From NCBI GenBank assembly GCA_036924285.1, contig JAYKYS010000015.1, forward strand, positions 6,510,001-6,574,000: DNA of 64,000 nt. The letters are read 5' to 3'. This document shows positions 8,687 to 64,000 of this stretch, piece after piece. Within the stretch, counting starts at the first letter, position 1. Every line of letters begins with the position of its first letter. The notes under the pieces are model-generated. The model made no database searches. It saw only the letters and a program-made list of their open reading frames with translations, and was not told the DNA's origin. The stretch is from Asterella californica (lineage: Eukaryota > Streptophyta > Marchantiopsida > Marchantiales > Aytoniaceae). Both the position numbers and the translations under genes were made by a program.

Positions 8687-11600
8687 CTAAATTTTCGCTC
8701 CGTCCTCGGAGTGAAGAGAGAACTTTCGTTGATGAAACAACTTCAACTTGTCATGATTTACCCGATCGAATCTCCTTCCTCCCAGCTCCTGAAGGTCATA
8801 TGTGAAGTTGCTCCACACCTTATCTACAACAAAAGGACCAAAATATCTCGGAAGAAACTTCTTCCTAGCCCTCTTGAATCTGATAGCATCATACAACATA
8901 ACCCAATCTCCGACTTGAAAAGGTTTTACCTCCCTCTTGCCCAACCTTTTGTCGTAACTCTTCTTTTGATACGCTTGAGCTCGTTCCATCCGGATCATCG
9001 CTATCGCTCGGGTCTCTTCCAACTCCATGAGTTGCTCCCTTCTTGATCTGACCACGTCTTCTCCTCTCGACCTCTTCAACTTTCGTTGAATAGTTTGAAA
9101 AGTATCCAATTCGAATTGGATCGGCAACTTGGACTCCACTCCATAAACCAGTCGAAATGGGGAGTACCCAGTAGAAGTCTTTGTTGTCGTTCGATACTCC
9201 CATAAGATGGCATGTAGTCTCTTATCCCAAGTATGTTTCGCAGTCTCAACACCAGCATCTTTGGCGAGCATCATACAAAGTGTAAGATTGGTCTTCTCCG
9301 CAAGACCATTAGCATTTGGTTTGTATGAGGTCGTTACTCGTGGCTTGATAGAAAAGTGTTGTAGCATAGCAGTAGTCATGCTCCCTACAAACTCTCCTCC
9401 TCTATCTGAGACCAACTCTAACGGACATCCAAATCTTGTGATGATCCTCTCCCATAAGAATCTACCGACTTCTGTTTCATTGGTCTCTCTCAAAGGTCTA
9501 GCCTCTACCCACTTGGTACAATAGTCAGTGGCGACTACAATGTATCTATTGCCTCGAGGTGTCTTATTAAGAGGACCTACAAAGTCAATACCCCACTTCT
9601 CAAATGGTCCTAACACGGGAATTGATCTTAACGGAGGTGTTCTAGTAGACTTCAGAGCAAATGCTTGACATACGTCGCAAGTTTTGCAATAGTCTAAACA
9701 CTCTTTGAAAATCCCTCTCCAGTGATAACCCGCATCCAAAATCTTGAAGGCTGTTATCTTACCAGCAAAGTGACCTCCGCAAACAGTTCCGTCGTGAAAC
9801 TCGTGCATTAGCTTGAATGTCTCCTTCTGACCAACTGCTCTCCTTAGTAACCCATCTGCTCCTTGATGAAACAAAATTCCCTCTACTATGGTGTAAGGTT
9901 TGCATCTCTTGATCAACGCGTTACGTTCTCGGGTATGCATACCTTCCGGAAAAGAGCCATCTGCAAGGAAACTCCAGATTTCCTTATACTCGTCCGGTAT
10001 CTCCTCAATGCTTGTGATGGTCATCAGATGCTCGTCTGGAAACGAATCGTCAAATGGTTCTTCTCCCTCATCATCATAAGCCCTCGACAAAAGATCAGCA
10101 TTCGCATGCTTTTTCCCTGGTCTATCTTCGATCACATAATCGTATTCTGTTAGAAGGATCTTCCAACGAGCAATACGACCTTCGGCATTAGGCTTATTAA
10201 AGATATACTTTAAAGCCTTGTGATCTGTGACTATGGAAAATTTCCCTCCTAGCAAGTAATGTCGGAATTTCTTCAATCCAAAGATCACCGCTAATCCTTC
10301 TCGTTCAGTCACGGAGTAATTCTTCTCCGCTGGAACCATCTGCCTACTAGCATAAGCTATAGGATGATCATGCCCATCTCCATCTAGCTGACTTAATGTA
10401 CATCCGATTGCTACATTGGAGGCATCCGTATACAGAATAAATGCTTTACTCCACTCAGGTTTAGCAAGTATAGGAGCTGTCACCAATGCCTTTTTCAGCT
10501 CCTCAAATGCTTCCTTTGCCTTCTGATCATGCACTATCAAGTCAAAATCAACTCCCTTCTTCATGTACATAGTCAAAGCTATTGCTTTGTTTGAGAAGGA
10601 AAAGACAAACCTACGATAATATCCAACCATGCCAAGAAACTGCCTCAACTTTGTCAAGTTGATCGGAAATGGAAGATCCACAATCTTCTTCACCTTTTCA
10701 GGATCTACCGCAATCCCATTCTTGGAAATGATGTGCCCTAACAGCAGACCTTCTTCGCAGCCAAAGATGCACTTCTCTGGATTCAGAGAAGCGTTAGCTT
10801 GCTCCAACCGCTGCAGAACTTTGATCACATGATCAAAGTGGTCCTCCTTTCTTCCGTACACACAGAAATCATCAATGAAATCACGAACAAACTTTCCTAT
10901 GAATGGTTCGAACACCTTGTTCATGAACCTCTGAAACGTGGCCGGAGCATTACACAGTCCGAATGGCATCACTCGAAATGCAAATGTTCCCCAAGGAGTA
11001 GTGAAAGTAGTCAACTGCTGGTACTCCTGTGCTATCTTGATCTGGTTGTATCCACTATAACCATCACCAAAGCTGTACCACTCATGACCGGCAACTTCCT
11101 CCAAAATCTCATCTATAAATGGTAGAGGATAATAGTCCTTCTTGGTAACTGCATTCAGCTTCTTATAGTCTATGCACACTCGCAGCTTACCATTCTTCTT
11201 CTTGACAATCACAATGGGTGAAACCCATTCTGAGTTCTCCACCTCATAGATGAAACTCGCCTCCTTCAACTTGTCTATCTCCTCCTTGACCATCATTGCC
11301 GTTGTGGGATTGACCCTTCTCTGCTTCTGTCGAACTGGTCTTGCGTGCTCCTCCAATTCGATTCGATGAGTCTCGAGAGTCACCTCCTTCAAATCCTTGT
11401 AGCTGAAAGCAAACACATGGATATATTTTCGAAATATATCTAGGAATCTACTTTTCTCCTCTTGAGTGACATTGATACCAAACTTCAAGGTAGAGAGTCT
11501 TCTCACAATCTCTGCCTCACTCAACTCTTCTTTGTCAGGATCTTTCTCCACTGCTGGTCGAGGCAACAAGTCAATAGCACTAAGCTGATGTAATGATTCA

Positions 11601-13552
11601 TCTCGACCACATCCTTCGTCCTCAGACGAGGATTCTTGATCGTAAGAATCTCCGGTATCTACTTCTGAGACACTCTGATCGTCCTCCGTATCAGATTCCC
11701 AATAGTCACTAGTGGGTCTATCAGAGTCAGAAGTCACAACTCCAACACCCGAGAGAGGAACTATCACTCTATGATCTCTAGGCCCAATCCGTAAGTATCC
11801 CTTGTGCCACCTATCCGTGGTGCGCACAGCTCTCAACCAAGGCCTACCTAGGAGCAAATCATAACTAGAGTCCTTTAACACTTGAAAGGACATCAATGTT
11901 TGAACTCCCATCACAGACACGACCACCTTCTCTAACACGCCAAGAGGTCTTACCCGTTGCTTGTTAGCCATCCCCACGACAATGCTAGCCGGGCGAGTTG
12001 GTTCCATCCCCAACTTCTTCATCAATCTCTCCGATATGGCGTTTACAGCCGACCCTCCATCCACCAATACGTCAGAGACGTAGTGACCATTCAACCGGAC
12101 TTCAATCTTTGAAGCCCTAGTGCATACCTCTGAAGCATGCACATCCACCACACCAACTCCCACAGACTTTGACGTCTTGCTCTTGGGTTTCTTCTTCTTG
12201 CTTCTCTTAGAACTCAGTCCTCCTCTGAGTTCCCTTCGTAAGCTGGGATTAAGTGCGATCAGTTGTCCAACAGTGATGTTGGCTTTCTGAGCACCCACAT
12301 CTTCAACCACATCATATCCCGCTTGGGAAGATGAAATGGTGAAATCCGCCATCCCCAGCTTCCTTCTTGGCTCCCTTGGTGTACTCGAAACATTACTCGA
12401 ACGAGTGCTTCTACTAGCTGATTCCTCCATGAAAACCGGTTCATCAGAAAATCGAGTTCTTTTCCTTTCTTGAGCTAAAAGCTCCACCGGTGCATGAGAA
12501 GAGTTTGAACTCTCTCCTTTCTCGTAGATGGGATCTCGCACGACATCGATAGTAGCCACCCCCTTGTCTCGTCCTTGTGATGGATTTCCTCCACCCACAT
12601 TCATTCTGACAGCTTCGGCACTTCTTGCTCCGTTGTTAGGACAATTTCGCTGAAAATGAGAACCTCCACACGTCCAACAAGTGATTCCTCCAAAGTTACC
12701 TTGATTTCCTCGGTTGGGATTGTTGTCGTAACCTCTTTGACCTCCTCCTCCACCTTTGTTCCTCCATTCTCGTAACTGTACCACGTTTATCTTGAGATCC
12801 GCAAGAGTGTCAGTGATGCTCTTCAGCTCGGCATGAAAATCAGAGGTGGCAGTAGACATCGTTGTTGGGACAAACGGTCTTGGCACCACCGTTGGAGTAG
12901 GAGCTGACGTTGAAGCAATCACCAATTGTGATGGTGCAGGTGCGATCGTTGTGGCTACACCAGGAGTCGGAGTTGACACCAGAGCAGCATGATGAGGTTG
13001 GATGATATCTCCTTCATCCAAACTCTCTTCCATATTTGTCGCTATCTTGATGGCCTCCGCTTTGGTTGCTGGCTTCTCGTACCTCACTTGGGTTCGAATT
13101 GAAGGTCTCAACCCTCCCACCAAGTTCTTGGTCAGCACTGCTCCAATCCCCGCCATCGTTAGTTCCACATTGTCTCCACTCTTCCGTAGGACCGTCCGAA
13201 ACCGTTGCTCCAACTTATCCACCCTTTCGGCATATTGCCGAACTTTCTCGTCGTCACGTTGCTTCAAATGAGTAAGCTCCACCATGAGCTTCTCATAACT
13301 CTCTTCTGGAAGAAATTCTTCGATGAGTGCATTACTCAACGTCTCCCATGTGTCCTCAACTGCACCAGGTGTCTGGCTCTTCACTCGGTCTTCATACCAC
13401 GTAAGAGCAAAATCTTCTAAAAACTCTGGCAGTAACAACACCCATTCTTCCTTCCTTCTCACGTTGTTTCCGATGCAACCCCTTTTGAAGTCTCGAACAA
13501 ACGGTTCTACATCTTCATTGTCCTTCCCATGAAACACGGGTAGCTTTCCCAT
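8687..13552 (-). CDS. E1 Gag-Pol polyprotein (1621 aa)
   Basis: A single open frame carries all retrotransposon functions. The N-terminal capsid-like gag (about residues 1-170) has the typical Trp- and Leu-rich helical region. A CCHC zinc knuckle has C292, C295, H299 and C304, with a short three-residue gap before His. The protease motif is VDGGS with D498, where DTG or DSG is usual. In the RT the catalytic motif is FIDD (D894, D895). RNase H begins near YTDAS (D1043). The integrase has D1323, D1383 and E1419, giving D,D35E spacing. The C-terminus has a GPF motif but no chromodomain. No stop or frameshift interrupts it, so it may still encode active enzymes. The stop codon lies a few bases from the polypurine tract. 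The start Met is the first in frame and fits a gag N-terminus. Confidence 0.95.
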   Translation of the reverse strand: MGKLPVFHGKDNEDVEPFVRDFKRGCIGNNVRRKEEWVLLLPEFLEDFALTWYEDRVKSQTPGAVEDTWETLSNALIEEFLPEESYEKLMVELTHLKQRDDEKVRQYAERVDKLEQRFRTVLRKSGDNVELTMAGIGAVLTKNLVGGLRPSIRTQVRYEKPATKAEAIKIATNMEESLDEGDIIQPHHAALVSTPTPGVATTIAPAPSQLVIASTSAPTPTVVPRPFVPTTMSTATSDFHAELKSITDTLADLKINVVQLREWRNKGGGGGQRGYDNNPNRGNQGNFGGITCWTCGGSHFQRNCPNNGARSAEAVRMNVGGGNPSQGRDKGVATIDVVRDPIYEKGESSNSSHAPVELLAQERKRTRFSDEPVFMEESASRSTRSSNVSSTPREPRRKLGMADFTISSSQAGYDVVEDVGAQKANITVGQLIALNPSLRRELRGGLSSKRSKKKKPKSKTSKSVGVGVVDVHASEVCTRASKIEVRLNGHYVSDVLVDGGSAVNAISERLMKKLGMEPTRPASIVVGMANKQRVRPLGVLEKVVVSVMGVQTLMSFQVLKDSSYDLLLGRPWLRAVRTTDRWHKGYLRIGPRDHRVIVPLSGVGVVTSDSDRPTSDYWESDTEDDQSVSEVDTGDSYDQESSSEDEGCGRDESLHQLSAIDLLPRPAVEKDPDKEELSEAEIVRRLSTLKFGINVTQEEKSRFLDIFRKYIHVFAFSYKDLKEVTLETHRIELEEHARPVRQKQRRVNPTTAMMVKEEIDKLKEASFIYEVENSEWVSPIVIVKKKNGKLRVCIDYKKLNAVTKKDYYPLPFIDEILEEVAGHEWYSFGDGYSGYNQIKIAQEYQQLTTFTTPWGTFAFRVMPFGLCNAPATFQRFMNKVFEPFIGKFVRDFIDDFCVYGRKEDHFDHVIKVLQRLEQANASLNPEKCIFGCEEGLLLGHIISKNGIAVDPEKVKKIVDLPFPINLTKLRQFLGMVGYYRRFVFSFSNKAIALTMYMKKGVDFDLIVHDQKAKEAFEELKKALVTAPILAKPEWSKAFILYTDASNVAIGCTLSQLDGDGHDHPIAYASRQMVPAEKNYSVTEREGLAVIFGLKKFRHYLLGGKFSIVTDHKALKYIFNKPNAEGRIARWKILLTEYDYVIEDRPGKKHANADLLSRAYDDEGEEPFDDSFPDEHLMTITSIEEIPDEYKEIWSFLADGSFPEGMHTRERNALIKRCKPYTIVEGILFHQGADGLLRRAVGQKETFKLMHEFHDGTVCGGHFAGKITAFKILDAGYHWRGIFKECLDYCKTCDVCQAFALKSTRTPPLRSIPVLGPFEKWGIDFVGPLNKTPRGNRYIVVATDYCTKWVEARPLRETNETEVGRFLWERIITRFGCPLELVSDRGGEFVGSMTTAMLQHFSIKPRVTTSYKPNANGLAEKTNLTLCMMLAKDAGVETAKHTWDKRLHAILWEYRTTTKTSTGYSPFRLVYGVESKLPIQFELDTFQTIQRKLKRSRGEDVVRSRREQLMELEETRAIAMIRMERAQAYQKKSYDKRLGKREVKPFQVGDWVMLYDAIRFKRARKKFLPRYFGPFVVDKVWSNFTYDLQELGGRRFDRVNHDKLKLFHQRKFSLHSEDGAKI

Positions 13553-13765
13553 CTTGTAACTACTCTTTCTACTCTTCTAATCGTCGTGCAATAACTACTC
13601 GCTAAAAGAGTACGAACATCACCAATTCCATTCGCGAATAATCTACCATAGGTAAAATGAAAGGAAATGGTTGTAACAACACCTCTTGTGCCATCTCTTC
13701 TCCCAAGGTAATCATGAGTCTGAGTCGCATCACCGCCTTCTCCACCATTCGAATGACGATCTCCA

Positions 13766-54773: not shown

Positions 54774-55976
54774 CTAGTCTCCAAGGTTCTCTAAATTGCC
54801 ATCGTCCTCTTCAACGTCCCCTGCGTCTTCTTCTGATAACAGATCTGCACCGGCATCCATCATCTGATCTGACTCCAAAAATTCATCTAGCTCAAAGGAT
54901 TCTCTCTTTTTTCTAACAACTTGATACGTTTACCAGCAACAAGAAGCCTTTGAGGTGTACCATCGAGCTCCCTAAAGAGTAAGTAGCATTCTGATTCACT
55001 TCTAAGACAACATATGGACCAAACCACCTCCTAGAAAATTTCCGAACCGTAGAGTGCTGATTCTCTAACATACTGTCATACACCAAAACCCAATCTCCAA
55101 CATGGATGGGCTTCGGTCGGAGCTGGTAGATCTTGTCAAACTTGTCCTTGTTCTTGAGACGGGCCTCTTTCAGTTTCTGTTGTGCCTCTATAAGATCCTC
55201 CTCTCTATGTTCCAACTGTCTGATTCAAAGTGCAAGAAGTTGTACATGATCCATTTCGTCTTCCCACGGTAAAGTAGCCCATGTAGGAAAGTCCTCCTCT
55301 GCTGGCATAATCGGTTTTTGACCCAGCATCAGTTCAATGGGCATATACCCAGTAGTAGTGCAATGAGTCGACCTGTCAGCCTACAGAGCAAAAAGGAGCA
55401 ACCTAGGCCACTGTCTATGTCTACCATCGCATGTCTTTACCAGAGCTTGAACAATTGATGGATGCCCTCTCTCACTATTACCGATCCCTTCCGGATTCAT
55501 GGCAGTAGTGAGTCTAAGTTTCACCCCGTGTTGGACGAAGAACTCATTCACTCTCGTATCACGTAACTCTCCTCTGTCTGCAAGTAATCTCCCTATAGAT
55601 CTATATCTACAGATAATATCCTCAAGAACAAACCTACATATCTTTTTTATGATCTTCGTCCTCAGAACTCGTCCTTCCACAAAGTTGGAGAGGTCTTCTC
55701 GAGCCAACACCAAATACCTCATACCTCATAATCCAGGAGGCATCACTATCAAATCAAGAACCCATTGAAAATCGATACTAGACGGATAGGTTGGTATCAG
55801 GTCATCTCTGTAACGTACCTTTGAATAAAATTGACAGTGCAAGCATGAACTCACAAAGTTCATCACATCTTGATACAGTCCTCTCCATTAGTATCTCTCC
55901 TTCAATTTTGTGTAGGTAACCCAAGCTCCTCGATGTCCAGCCCACAAGGTGTCATGAAACTCCTTCATCAACTGTT
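54774..55976 (-). pseudogene. E7 integrase remnant, relative of E2
   Basis: The minus frames 55381-55722 and 54913-55215 plus flanking sequence align to the E2 integrase over its full length. They cover the zinc region (HDTLWAGHRG, CLHCQ), the core with WVLDL, LADRGEL and NSERGHPS, GPYVV, and an acidic tail ending at a TAG at 54774. A TAA follows KERY, the same place as a TGA in E2, where Trp is expected. There are frameshifts near 54900 and in the core. Confidence 0.85.
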
Positions 55977-58517: not shown

Positions 58518-59660
58518 CTAAGGATGATGAACTTCACATGCCTCGCCTCCAGCTTTTGTCTCCACCGACTCAATAGACAAAGAGCTCAGAAGTGTCCGAG
58601 CAGCAACACCTGTCGATCGCATCCGACGCTGCTCAACGAATCCAATGTTAACAATCCACGTCAAGCAATTCAAGTCCATTGCTTGACCCAACACTTGACG
58701 ACATGAAGTCTCCAATACAGAAGTTACTGTCTTTGTACTCGTAGTGAAACCCATCGCTCGCTCTCTCTTATCTGCATTGAGCTCCATCAACTACCGTAAC
58801 TGAGCATCCCACACAAACCCAAGTCCTCCATCTCCGTAAGCATGTGACGCTGGAAAGCTCACCAAAGTGAGCAACGCTGCCGTGGACCATCCCACTAGAT
58901 TCACCATTGTCATGGGTGACCTATCGACGACTCTCACTACTTGAGATCGTTGTCCTGCATCCAAGATGCCATAAATCGTGCTTGAGCACCTCCTTTGGTA
59001 ACAAGTTCGTCCACCACAAATGTGGATGATGTGCACAAGATCTCTCTCTCGCTACATCCAACAGCACTTACGGTCCAACCCAAGACCGCACCTGGTGCAC
59101 ACTCGTCATCATCTGTGTACGAGCATCACCCAACAAAGGAACGTTCTCCAAGATGTACGTTAGAGAATCCACCCGATGCATCTGGAGATGTCGTAAGATT
59201 CATAACATCTCCTAGAACATCTTAGATCGCGGGTCATGTAAACCCTGATCCCTCCCAGCACGTGTGTGATCTTGACATGGCCACCCAGCTATCATCAAGT
59301 GAATGATGCCAACAAACGTGAGATCCTGCGCCCTCAGCAGCAAAATATCCGACGGTAATGCTTGCTGGTATCCTCTAACGGTTGATATGAGACAACAACT
59401 CAAGATATCTTTGCACCAAATGTGCCACATGACGCAATGAGATGCGTCTCACAACCTCATCTCTCTCCACATACAAGTATCCTGTATTTGTATGTCTGTC
59501 TGCAATACCGCAGTCAAACCTGTGTTGATCTCTCCAAACAGCTCCAACACACATATACCCTCCTTTGGATACTGCCACACAATGAAAGTCTTATCCACGG
59601 TGATAAGGTCACGAGGTCAGTAGTAGGAACAACCCGCTGTTCCTCTACTGACGGTACAAA
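58518..59660 (-). pseudogene. E6 C5 cytosine DNA methyltransferase (retrotransposon-borne)
   Basis: The family transfers a methyl group from S-adenosylmethionine to cytosine C5. Motif I (SAM binding) reads VLELFGEINTGL at 59550-59515, against an expected F-x-G-x-G-type loop, so one Gly may be Glu. A motif II-like YVERDE follows at 59473-59456. Motif IV reads GWPCQ at 59286-59272, with the catalytic Cys codon at 59277-59275. Motif VI reads ILENVPLL, with Glu at 59148-59146. A SFPASHAY segment lies at about 58835. Motifs IX-X resemble ELNADKRERAMGF and RQVLGQAMDLN (about 58785-58660). At least three frame changes and stops (TAG, TGA after MF; TAG before MELN) disable it. It lies between protease and RT, so it was part of the polyprotein. 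Confidence 0.85.
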
Positions 59661-59783: not shown

Positions 59784-60636
59784 CTATTCAAAGACCGGAG
59801 TATCCTCCGCATGGGCATTGTCTTCTAACAACTCGTCTGGCCAAGTGATGACCAAACTGAATCTTGCAACGGATGCTATCGTCCTTGGTGTAGGCTCCGT
59901 TGTCCCAACTCTAGCACTGAACCGCATTGGTAAGCAGCTCACTCGTCCCTCACCGGACTGCCAACCTGGTCTGTAAGATGTTGTCTCCGTCCAATAGTCG
60001 ATCACAAACCTCATAAGATATAACACAACACCTCCAATCAATACATCATAGGACTCCGCGGCTGTAACGATGGCCTTGACCTTCACCATGGAGCCATCCA
60101 TGGGATGATCTGGTCGAACTCTCACCGTCAGCATCTCGTGTGTCATGTGTAGAGCTATACCTCCTGATCCCTAGAGATGTTTGTAGCTAGAATGGATATC
60201 TCTCCACCTCAAACTTCCTCAGCCTCAAACTAATACACGTCGCCTTCCTCAACATCAACGGTTGGACTCCAAAATGTAACAAGACTTTCTGTGGTCGATA
60301 CACCTTCCCTGAAAGTGCCACCAAATAGAATATGTCACTTCTGTTGGCCAACAACACCACACCTGGTGCTAAACCAGCATGGTCAATCGTCAGCCTAGCT
60401 GGTAACTCATCTAATCTGTCAGTCGCCCCTTGCCAAGTATCACTAGTAGCTGTCTTGATCTTCAACTCCATGGATACATCTACCGCCTCTCGCTGAACCA
60501 TCTCAACACTAGAGGTAACAACATCCTCGCTCTCACTCAGCGTGACCGTCAGTTGGAACATTGGAGCCAAGCTGACTCCCAATGTCCTCATATCCGTGGC
60601 TGAAAATAATGGAGCTCGCAAAACTGCTGTAGCCGC
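59784..60636 (-). pseudogene. E6 retropepsin-like protease region
   Basis: One minus frame (60187-60810, whose first part lies in the adjoining LTR) ends with GVQPLML, where D-x-G is expected before GVQ; here it is HFGVQPLML. A second frame (59784-60146) continues with VRVKAIV-like and ESYDVLIGGVVLY, followed by YRPGWQ. This matches the second half of a retropepsin and its linker. A frameshift at about 60180-60146 separates them. The linker to the methyltransferase is Glu/Pro-rich with TAG stops at 59730-59690. Confidence 0.7.
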
Positions 60637-62471
60637 TATCGTGTCGGATATTGCATGAAGGATGTCAAGGAAAACGCGAGGTTCCTGACTGTAGAGATGC
60701 TTTGTGCTGAACAAAGACAAGACAGAGAAAAACAACCACGAAAATGAATGCTGCAATATATACCAACTCCAAATGTATCTACACTGCCGGTTCTTTTTTC
60801 CTAAGAACACAAAACTGAGAAACAGACTAGAGCGGTCTTTAATATGCTACAAAGCCCCTAAAACGAACCCCTAAATCTCAACCCTGATCCAAAACCATCG
60901 AAGCGTAGCTCAAAGCAAGAGAAACTTCTCTTTGCTAACAAACAGAGCTGCACCAGTATCACACGATTGAAACCCAAGTCCAAACCATCCATGTATAAGC
61001 TCTTAGCTAAAGCTCGCTACCACAAGCCGTACACAACCAACTAAGTCCCTAGCGAACTCAAAAGGACGAAATCCGTAGCGAAGGGACCAAAAAAGATCTA
61101 TCTAAGAACTTTCTCCTTTTGCCAAACAATCTTTAGATGTCGATAGGGTCTTCTTCCTTAACTCCGTTGGCCTCAAGAACTATCAAATCTGACTCTCGAT
61201 AGCCGAGATATCGCCAGTTTTTGGTCGTAGGTGACCAAACCTTCAAAAACTCTTCCATGCGGCTTAAAACCACACACATTGCACAAACGGATCGTCTAAA
61301 CTGATATTCGTCTTCTCTGGTAGGTAGATCTAGCTATCTTGAACCCAACAAGACTCCAAACAAGCCGTTTGGAGTTTTTCTTGCAAAACCGTGCAAGAAA
61401 TTTAGTCGCATGTTGCAAAAAATTGACGTAAATTGACTCCTTGCGGCTCAAAATCGCTCACCACACCCAAACCAACAATCCAATCCACACATGATCTTCT
61501 CCTATGCGTAGATGAGGACTCCCTGATCACATAGGCACCAAGAACGAAGAGCTTCGCTCGCCGATCGCGAAGAAGAACCCAATCTCAAGTCGCAGGCGAA
61601 CAAAAATCTGACATAAGCACTTCTATGCGAGCCAATTTCACTCAGAACTCCTAAACCGCCCAATGAAACTTCGTATCGTCTTCAATTTCTTGTAGAACTC
61701 GGTGTTTTGATCCCGATGGATCCAATGACAGCAAGTTTAGACTCTAGAACGATCTGAACGGTCCAACTCTTTTTCACAGACAACTGAAATCTCTAAATCT
61801 CCTTCCTGCGTCTCAATTTCTCCCAGTACACACTCCTCGATCCGTCTCTTCACAAACCGTCTTATTCGGTGCGTAGCCTGCACAGATCTGAACCTAACGA
61901 CGCCTTACGCGTTTGCATTGGACCTCCAAATCTCTCGAATCGTCTGTTGACAGGTCACAGGTGCAAGCTAGTCCCTTAAGCTGCCCCCTTATGTCAATCT
62001 CTCTACGTACAAGGTTTCTGTGATAATGAGGAAGCAGGTGCTTGCGTCCTTAGTATAGCGCTTAGAGCCGCAAATACCCAGTCAGCAAGTAAACTAGGAC
62101 CTAACTTGATTTTTTCTTTTTTCGAGTTGCATAACTTCTCCACTAGGCGTCCAAATGAAGTAGACGAAGTGCCCATGGAAAGCTGACAACGAGCTCTACC
62201 CATTGATGCGATGAAGATCCGAAGTCGTGCCAAAAGTCCGTAAGCTGGGCCCTAGCTTGCTTTCTCCATCTTTCGAGTCTTGTAACTTCTCCACTAAACG
62301 TACAAATGAAGTAGACAAAGTGCCCATGGGAAGCTGACAAGGAGCTCTATCCACTGATGCAATGAAAGCGGAGATCCGAAATTATGCCAAAAGCTCATAA
62401 GCTAAGGCCTAGCTTGCTTTTCTCATGAGTGTCTTTGGAGCGACAAGCATCGAAGTCTGAATTTCAGATAG
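60637..62471 (-). repeat. E2-family LTR, 5' end truncated
   Basis: On minus it runs from 62471 to an intact end CGACACGATA at 60637, and matches the E2 LTRs with two internal 157-bp-type units (tccaaatg near 62147 and a changed copy near 62302). The first about 25 bp of the LTR (TGTCGTGTCG...) are missing, the break lying where E8 begins. It is diverged from the E2 LTRs. Confidence 0.9.
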
Positions 62472-64000
62472 GTTCTGAAGTAGTTTGCCGACCTGAAAGT
62501 TCATCTTCTGAACCAGAAGGACAAGCGGAAGCAACCTACGGCTTCCCGGCCAAACCTTTGGTGCAACCTTTGCAACTCTTCCGGACACACCAGAGATCAG
62601 TGTACCCAAGCTGTCAACTGGGCAAGATGGGAAGAAGACGATGAGGGATATCTAAACGATCCCAGTGGGGAAACTTGCTATAGAATCGAGACGATAGAAC
62701 CCTTCACTCTTACGCCTCCCGCCCAATATAATCGTTATGTACCGAGGGATAGAGCTAGCAATGTACAGACCAGGACACCCTGGCAGCCTTCTTCATCACA
62801 ACGACCTCTCAACCCTCTTCCTGGAGCGTGCAATAATTGTGGAGAGACAGGACACTGGTGGTCCACCTGTCCTCATCCGAGAAGACAGATTGGGCAAGTG
62901 CCTTGTGTGGGAACTGTAAGGAAGCCGGTCATTTCATAGGGAATTGTCCTCAGACCTTACGACCGCGACAAATGGTTAGATTTGCAGATAACACGTCTCT
63001 TGCAGAAGCAGCATCAACTTCTAAGCTCGAGTTAGCAGTGGTACAGCACATCACGGTAGAAGAAGAAGATCCTGGGGATTGTACGGATTGTCTCCATATC
63101 GAGGAAGACGAACCAGACCCCGGGAAGCGCGAAGGAAAGGAACCTCAGCTGCAGACGACGACTGCAGCTCAGAAGACGGAGACACCTGAAGAAACGTCAT
63201 CTTTCACTTTGACGGATGGTACTGTTTGGAATCCTGACCCGAATTCAGATAGTTGGCCTCCGGAGGAAGTCTTGGATGAAGCTATGTTCAAGGTAAGTAC
63301 CAGAAGCAAAGGGAAGTCAGAATCTCGTCAGAAGGACGTCAAGAAGAAGAAGCAGCGAAAGGAGAGGTCATCTTCTCCTGAGCGGCCGTCTTCTCCTACT
63401 TACGACCGAGAAGATCCGAAGTACTTTGCAGCGAAAGGAGAGGTCATCTTCCCTTGAGCGACCTTCTTCTCCTACTTACGACCGAGAAGATCCAAAGTAC
63501 TTTGCTCCTGACATTAGACAAGAAGTTGAAGCGATCATGCAAGAAGAGCTGGAGAAGCGACAGAAGATAGTACAGCAGCTTCCTCCACCGACTACGACAG
63601 CCCCTGTCTCATGGGAGCAACCCCCAGTCGAGGGAAGACCCCATCCTGGTCTTCCACCCAAGGGAGCAGCTACTACATCTTCTCTGTTGGAAACACCAGT
63701 CACTCTTCTGAAGCGATCCCCTTACGACTTCTACGGGACTTGTGGAATCAGAAGGCGGATGTAACCTTCCAACAGCTGTTGGATGACAACGCTGGTTATA
63801 GGAAGTTGTTACAATCCGTGCTTCGAGGATCGAGGAAGAGGAGGATAGCTAAACTTCCCAAGAGCACCCCGATCCTAAGGATAGAGCATGAGGACTTGGG
63901 AGCTCCAGAACTTGATATGGAGATCCATGGTTGTCTTTTGAAGAAGGTACCCATTGATTCTGGTTAACATCATGACTGAAGAAACGACGCATGCCCTAGG
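62472..64000 (+). pseudogene. E8 gag-protease start, three zinc knuckles, broken; runs off the window
   Basis: One plus frame (from about 62475) contains CNLCNSSGHTRDQC (62563-62604) and CNNCGETGHWWSTC (62826-62867). A third knuckle, CGNCKEAGHFIGNC, is one frame over at 62906, so a one-base change lies between them. All are CX2CX4HX4C. The protein then becomes acidic and Ser/Lys-rich with coiled-coil-like DIRQEVEAIMQEELEKR (about 63511). A 76-bp duplication shifts the frame again at 63431. At 63951 the retropepsin start IDSG appears, followed by a frameshift (TAA), then NIMTEET. Gag packages RNA and protease matures it. RT and later parts are outside the window. Confidence 0.8.
63355..63506. 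repeat. E8 tandem duplication, 76 bp
   Basis: gcgaaaggagaggtcatctt begins at 63355 and again at 63431, and both copies continue with a similar clause ending gatcc-aagtactttgc. The 76-bp length is not a multiple of three, so the duplication causes the frame change seen at 63457. Confidence 0.9.

Follow-up and report, generated by a model that had tools for sequence, protein, structure and literature searches.

A decayed Ty3/gypsy copy in Asterella californica belongs to a recently inserted retroelement family with a DNMT3-like cytosine methyltransferase upstream of a probably leaky stop codon

The genome of Asterella californica (Marchantiopsida) contains, within the 64,000-nt stretch analysed here (contig JAYKYS010000015.1, positions 6,510,001 to 6,574,000; hereafter, the window), a decayed copy of a Ty3/gypsy retroelement that carries a C5 cytosine DNA methyltransferase (DNMT). 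The copy occupies positions 60636–55979 of the window on the minus strand and is truncated at both ends. From protease (PR) to integrase (IN), it aligns at 87–91% nucleotide identity with L021, an intact copy in the same genome. It retains the half of open reading frame 1 (ORF1) that encodes the PR and the DNMT, together with most of ORF2 as far as the IN, and it is devoid of gag, the 5′ end, the IN C-terminus, the PHD finger, and the 3′ end; blastn of L021 detected no match to the terminal repeats within the window. The copy has 12 frame-changing insertions or deletions and 22 codons converted to stops.

An earlier note on this DNA had proposed a fossil cytosine methyltransferase inside a gypsy element, based on five motifs in the canonical order on the minus strand. 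All five were located in that order between 59550 and 58668, and they are distributed over three frames as a result of the damage to the copy. The domain, whose span is corrected to 59565–58626, was verified by the PF00145 match and the alignment to L021. When three minus-strand frames of the window were compared with PF00145 (stops read as X), one frame matched (E = 3.1e-7, 30.6 bits; cut-off, 22) and the remaining two gave no PF00145 match. The matching frame, used as a query, retrieved 47 proteins at E ≤ 1e-3, the best at 1.1e-69. Taken together, the Pfam match, the protein matches, and the alignment place the DNMT of the window far beyond chance, and the candidate explanation of chance motif matches was ruled out by the first two. 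The neighboring PR and reverse transcriptase (RT), which the note had assigned to the same retroelement, do belong to it, as does the IN, judging from their amino acid identities to L021 (Table 1).

Table 1. Features of the decayed DNMT-carrying copy in the window (aa, amino acid; TRD, target recognition domain)
Feature	Position in window	Strand	Match
ORF1 nt 1831–4104 of L021	60636–58401	minus	blastn 86.8%
Aspartic PR region	60357–59739	minus	tblastn pieces, 81.3% and 66.7% aa identity to L021
PR motif LHFGVQ (L021: LDSGAQ)	60276–60253	minus	
C5 cytosine methyltransferase domain, DNMT3-like, frame-broken	59565–58626	minus	PF00145; tblastn 67.0% and 72.6% to L021
Methyltransferase motif VLELFGEINTGL	59550–59515	minus	
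Methyltransferase motif YVERDE	59473–59456	minus	
Motif IV GWPCQ, catalytic cysteine	59286–59272	minus	
Motif VI ILENVPLL	59154–59131	minus	
Motif VIII/TRD-like segment CAHHPHLWWTNL (L021: RAHRPRLWWTNL)	59037–59002	minus	
Motif X-like end RQVLGQAMDLN	58700–58668	minus	
ORF2 nt 4–1599 of L021	58401–56813	minus	blastn 91.0%
RT	58314–57429	minus	tblastn 86.8% and 85.4% to L021
RT motif YIDN (in place of YIDD)	57728–57717	minus	
ORF2 nt 1703–2553 of L021	56823–55979	minus	blastn 91.0%
IN, zinc-binding part and core, broken	56729–56132	minus	tblastn pieces, 80.6%, 83.1%, and 89.1%

The window copy differs from L021, which is its relative and not its ancestor, by 468 substitutions, 317 of which are C>T or G>A. 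The C>T/G>A rates per site were 0.158/0.144 in the CG context, 0.201/0.190 in CHG, and 0.100/0.109 in CHH. This substitution pattern suggests that the copy was long methylated and silenced by the host.

The copy belongs to a large family, the members of which are in part intact and were inserted into this genome recently. In the host assembly (516.7 Mb, 773 contigs), a pattern of the catalytic motif with synonymous positions left free had 662 exact matches, and its reversed control had none. A genome search with PF00145 gave 1250 candidates, of which 123 were scored and all 123 matched; at least two of them (L001 and L002) are host genes. Twenty copies were fetched by selecting for long open frames, so that the following figures of intactness are biased upward: ORF1 was open over at least 1367 aa in 16 copies, and both ORFs were open in 10, which answers in the affirmative the question, raised by the earlier note, of whether intact relatives exist. 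The two copies of the terminal repeat A described below were identical in 3 of the 8 elements in which they were compared across the whole repeat. The query P0003 returned no loci in viral contigs and four matches at 27–41% in plasmids.

The origin of the domain from a fragment of a host gene was ruled out, as the host DNMT3-like gene L001 and the DRM-like gene L002, the latter with a permuted motif order, are separate genes. L001 (C1:40145511-40145831 and a downstream exon) has at least two exons and FPCQ as motif IV, and the best match in its search was a lycophyte protein with 45% identity over half of the query.

In L021, ORF1 (about 1370 aa in intact copies) codes for Gag, two CCHC-like zinc knuckles, a PR with the motif LDSGAQ, and the DNMT, while ORF2 (1041 aa) codes for RT, RNase H (RH), an H2C2 domain, the IN core rve, and a PHD finger at residues 996–1040. 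Pfam recognized RVT_1, RT_RNaseH, Integrase_H2C2, and rve in the Ty3/gypsy order with IN last, as well as the PHD finger. Gag and PR had no Pfam match and were identified in the sequence by the PR motif and the zinc knuckles. No chromodomain, the hallmark of chromoviruses, was found in ORF2 by Pfam at E ≤ 0.01, and no tyrosine recombinase was found in L021 by Pfam.

The element DNMT has motifs I, IV, VI, VIII, and X in an unpermuted order, and its fold and phylogeny are nearest to DNMT3. It is under purifying selection, with a dN/dS of about 0.17. It is 21–26% identical to the catalytic domains of human DNMT3A and DNMT3B, from which it differs in having PCQ rather than PCN in motif IV and a GQAMDLN end; plant DRM methyltransferases are also kin of DNMT3, but their motifs are permuted. 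Conceivably, the domain is retained not for DNA cytosine methylation but to bind DNA or RNA, to shape the particle, or to methylate RNA. This would be in line with the motif IV variants GWECQ and GWPCE of some relatives and with the fact that, according to de Mendoza et al. (2018, PMC5890265), the related enzyme of Klebsormidium nitens produced no methylation in yeast, a result that its authors considered inconclusive. We regard such a role as distinctly improbable, because the catalytic Cys is present in 45 of 46 aligned rows and the motif VI Glu in all 46, the fold is that of DNMT3, and the DNMT3s of SymbioDIRS elements methylate CG in yeast (PMC5890265).

The DNMT and the RT are separated by a stop codon. 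In all 17 copies whose ORF1 reaches the site, ORF1 terminates with UAG followed by CAG-UCA, and ORF2 continues in the same frame. UAG-CARYYA is the readthrough rule derived from tobacco mosaic virus, and CAG-UCA conforms to it. This plant-virus-type context suggests that the UAG is leaky. Proteins predicted from Marchantia (P0048, P0052, and the partial P0051) and from a metagenome (P0050) end near the same place as ORF1.

Relatives of the element are filed under Marchantia polymorpha, M. paleacea, Calypogeia fissa, Sphagnum tenellum, S. fallax, Closterium sp. NIES-53/NIES-54, and K. nitens. In the phylogeny with known methyltransferases that the earlier note had called for, a tree of 54 rows, 36 element DNMTs formed one clade (100/100) on a long branch. 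This clade grouped with the DNMT3s and apart from seven DNMT1-like and bacterial rows (99/94); an eighth such row, P0195, was placed among the DNMT3s. Copies from this genome were grouped with Marchantia and other rows (100/100). The tree omits 15 of 61 aligned rows (P0077 and P0098, which are long branches, and thinned close relatives), and its outgroup rows came from a single search with the host gene, which may bias the result. The window copy could be a chimera formed by chance with a captured piece of host DNMT3, but the probability of this is practically nil, even though the copy itself is broken and truncated: the element clade lies apart from host DNMT3, the order PR-DNMT-RT is common to proteins of K. 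nitens, Closterium, and Marchantia, and collinearity with L021 extends across the DNMT and into ORF2 in all 19 remaining fetched copies, which also bears out the expectation that genomic copies keep the DNMT between PR and RT.

A second domain order, with the RT before the DNMT, was found in 10 gypsy polyproteins (P0083–P0085, P0089, P0090, P0093–P0096, and P0101), 9 of which have the IN behind the DNMT. The fragments P0091, P0100, and P0104 comprise DNMT-IN-PHD only; the PHD finger is present in 7 of the 10 proteins and in all three fragments. Given that this kind forms one clade both in the DNMT tree (98/90, 12 rows) and in the RT tree (97/97, 10 rows), a single relocation of a domain is likeliest. 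The simplest history is a single capture of DNMT3, either before the streptophytes or early in their evolution, followed by one domain move, and horizontal spread of the element is possible. Independent capture in each host group is disfavored by the single clade of element DNMTs.

The ends of the insertions are unusual for a gypsy element. The left end is a 294-nt repeat, A (TGTCACG...CAGATTA), and the right end is B-A-B, in which B is 108 nt and terminates with CACGACA. B-A-B was present at the 3′ end of 17 of the 20 copies, and its pattern had 351 exact matches genome-wide (control, 0); A was present at the 5′ end in 16 of the 17 copies followed there, the piece of L009 matching nothing. 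The insertions therefore have split direct repeats, A-body-B-A-B, as in DIRS-type elements, and not two identical full long terminal repeats (LTRs) at the ends. On both sides of 13 of 16 copies, the 4-bp target duplications are exact, and those of the other three agree in 3 of 4 bases. CTCAAAGAACT, directly after A, contains 11 nt complementary to A:140-150 in 15 of the 16 copies (the piece of L026 is too short); among 20,000 mononucleotide shuffles, one did as well. Self-priming Ty3 elements, Tf1 among them, are arranged in this way. The 11-nt complementarity between the primer-binding site (PBS) and the 5′ repeat of the predicted transcript is shared with Tf1/sushi-type elements, from which the present family differs in its split repeats, DNMT, and PHD finger. 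A G-rich tract, GGGGGGCG, is located directly before B in 16 of 18 copies and is likely the equivalent of a polypurine tract.

At the B/A junction, CA-GC-TG lies within the palindrome GACAGCTGTC in all 14 copies compared there, and in 13 of these 14 within the longer CACGACAGCTGTCACG. Of 17 copies, 4 have an uneven A/B joint, with one additional A in two of them and about 10 and about 22 extra bases in the others; a fifth copy is divergent there. Because joints of cDNA ends are uneven, these cases fit joined cDNA ends. The roughly 22 extra bases in L022 are a repeated 7-mer, as if added during the joining of cDNA ends. Six genome matches to B-GC-A-PBS were obtained: three head-to-tail tandem joints, body-B-GC-A-body, in three places (L052, L053, and L057), two rearranged sequences, and one locus (L056) with A-B-A-body at the left. 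On the minus strand of contig C102 of this genome (G000), L056 at the left is accompanied by a lone B followed by GC at the right (L059), with L058 in between. L056–L059 may represent an alternative opening, A-B-A-body-B, which is a lead and not proof. L017 is A-body-B with the duplication CCTC, a structure expected of a one-repeat circle and equally of recombination between B1 and B2.

These data lead us to the following explanation, to which we assign a probability of roughly 0.6: the window copy is a truncated member of a young family in which a leaky UAG would set the DNMT at the level of Gag, the enzyme would methylate the element's cDNA, and the insertions would arise by the opening of a circle. 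If the UAG is leaky, the main product would be Gag-PR-DNMT, and the full polyprotein would be minor. The DNMT would then be packed into particles in number, as Gag is, and would encounter there mainly the RNA and cDNA of the element. Since DNMT3s act on double-stranded DNA, the likeliest substrate would be the element's own cDNA before integration, as de Mendoza et al. proposed for relatives (PMC5890265). Self-methylated cDNA would enter the genome resembling host heterochromatin rather than foreign DNA, and the element might gain by evading host sensing of bare cDNA or by a silent arrival that spares the host.

The enzyme might instead act in trans on host chromatin or rival elements and alter their silencing, with cDNA not being its main target. 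With hundreds of copies, the enzyme could be abundant; the PHD finger that follows the IN points to contact with chromatin, and effects on the host methylome were considered for Symbiodinium (PMC5890265). We find trans action improbable, as a Gag-fused enzyme would be expected within particles and the methylome of K. nitens is ordinary and plant-like despite its related element, with the qualification by the authors that copies are fewer there (PMC5890265).

The later steps of the proposed route, from the methylated cDNA to the insertion, are less sure. Ordinary reverse transcription from the sites after A and before B, self-primed at the 5′ end of the RNA, would yield B-A-body-B-A, and the observed insertions equal this molecule with one B shifted from front to back. 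The ends of the cDNA would then be joined into a circle, which the DDE integrase would open at the palindromic B/A junction (CA-GC-TG), giving A-body-B-A-B insertions with 4-bp duplications. Alternatively, the split repeats may be made as in DIRS elements, with the internal B1-A2 templating the joining of cDNA ends during reverse transcription and no circle opened by integrase. That route would account for the constant B1/A2 junction; the repeats have the same order as in DIRS elements and in KnitGypsy-Dnmt3 of K. nitens (PMC5890265), and the strong bias toward one opening, described below, is a problem for the circle. We consider it unlikely, albeit a serious contender, in view of the DDE integrase without a tyrosine recombinase, the exact target duplications, and the PBS-like site and G-rich tract, which fit LTR-type cDNA with the repeat B-A. 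The whole chain, in which a Gag-level DNMT3 methylates a joined circle of self-primed cDNA and integrase opens it to leave pre-methylated and permuted insertions, is doubtful when its parts are taken jointly. To our knowledge, no LTR element has such a life cycle.

Several observations weigh against the methylated-cDNA and circle explanation. The purifying selection on the family DNMT (dN/dS 0.168 among copies, compared with Ka/Ks < 0.2 for KnitGypsy-Dnmt3; PMC5890265) was estimated from non-independent pairs of copies picked for open frames. As a trace of self-methylation, CG depletion gave no clear signal in the observed/expected CpG ratio, which was 0.72–0.75 in four copies, 0.67 in the window copy, and 0.75 in the whole window. 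The C>T and G>A decay of the window copy, which is above all in CG and CHG, is sufficiently explained by host silencing without an element enzyme. The lack of methylation by the K. nitens enzyme in yeast, a result that its authors considered inconclusive, is a further point on this side. The RNA fold at the UAG has no more than mild stability (z −1.98; equalled by 6 of 200 shuffles), and a dedicated readthrough hairpin is thus a weak candidate. The Marchantia and Sphagnum proteins P0049, P0055, P0056, P0063, and P0064 continue from the DNMT into the RT, although these gene models may be spliced or lack the stop. As for the circle, 351 normal ends stand against one candidate alternative opening, though a circle with two repeats has two equal B/A junctions. 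At L056–L059, there is no clear target duplication, the distance between the ends exceeds expectation by about 3.6 kb, and the middle was read in L058 alone; the two ends may come from different insertions.

The family is a land-plant branch of a known type of element. KnitGypsy-Dnmt3 has gypsy domains and a DIRS-like repeat arrangement (de Mendoza et al. 2018, PMC5890265), and the present family shares with it a gypsy pol, a Dnmt3-type domain, and split repeats. The K. nitens protein P0088 (KFL_009030040, a partial gene model), which is taken here to represent KnitGypsy-Dnmt3, has the order PR-DNMT-RT-RH-IN and falls in the same DNMT clade. P0088 has DNMT and RT in a single predicted protein, whereas the Asterella family has a UAG between them that leaves the DNMT with Gag-PR. 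Further differences from the K. nitens element are the land-plant-like host and the hundreds of motif matches; the words "PHD" and "protease", denoting features of our family, are absent from the main text of PMC5890265. SymbioDIRS-Dnmt3 of Symbiodinium also combines a retroelement DNMT3 with A-body-B-A-B repeats but has a tyrosine recombinase (PMC5890265) where our family has a DDE integrase. DIRS-type elements in general have a tyrosine recombinase and no target duplication, and the Asterella family departs from them in both respects.

Within the literature searched, no report of DNMT-carrying gypsy elements in bryophytes was found, although the supplementary trees of one paper may include rows from bryophytes. 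The presence in a land plant with many copies, the DNMT upstream of a leaky-type stop, the PHD finger, the self-priming site, the target duplications, and the second domain order are apparently new within that literature. A 2019 opinion article stated that land plants "such as tracheophytes" lack methylase-bearing transposons and based an argument on this (PMC6338049), and a study of Lunularia attributes the larger genome of this plant to bursts of Ty3/gypsy elements without using the word "methyltransferase". Family proteins are filed under Marchantia, Calypogeia, and Sphagnum, and in the host of the window, copies are young and some of them intact. Because the model plant Marchantia polymorpha can be transformed and has members of the family (for example, Mp_4g09160, P0048), it offers a way to test why a retrotransposon keeps a DNMT. 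The position of the DNMT before a probably leaky stop leads to the concrete expectation that it is produced in Gag amounts, and the split repeats with target duplications make it possible to test whether integration can proceed from circular DNA, a notion that was abandoned long ago for retroviruses.

The window also contains sequences of other elements. Within about 5 bases of the 3′ break of the DNMT-carrying copy, at 55974–55468 on the minus strand, lies a piece of the IN core of a different gypsy element (27% identity). At 8687–13576 (minus), a 1629-aa open frame appears to encode the gag-pol of another gypsy family and is seemingly intact. Overlapping open frames at 62484–63967 (plus) contain three CCHC-type knuckles and are likely the gag of a further element, next to a pair of 127-nt direct repeats (83%) at 62089–62366; this element lies on the strand opposite to that of the DNMT-carrying copy.
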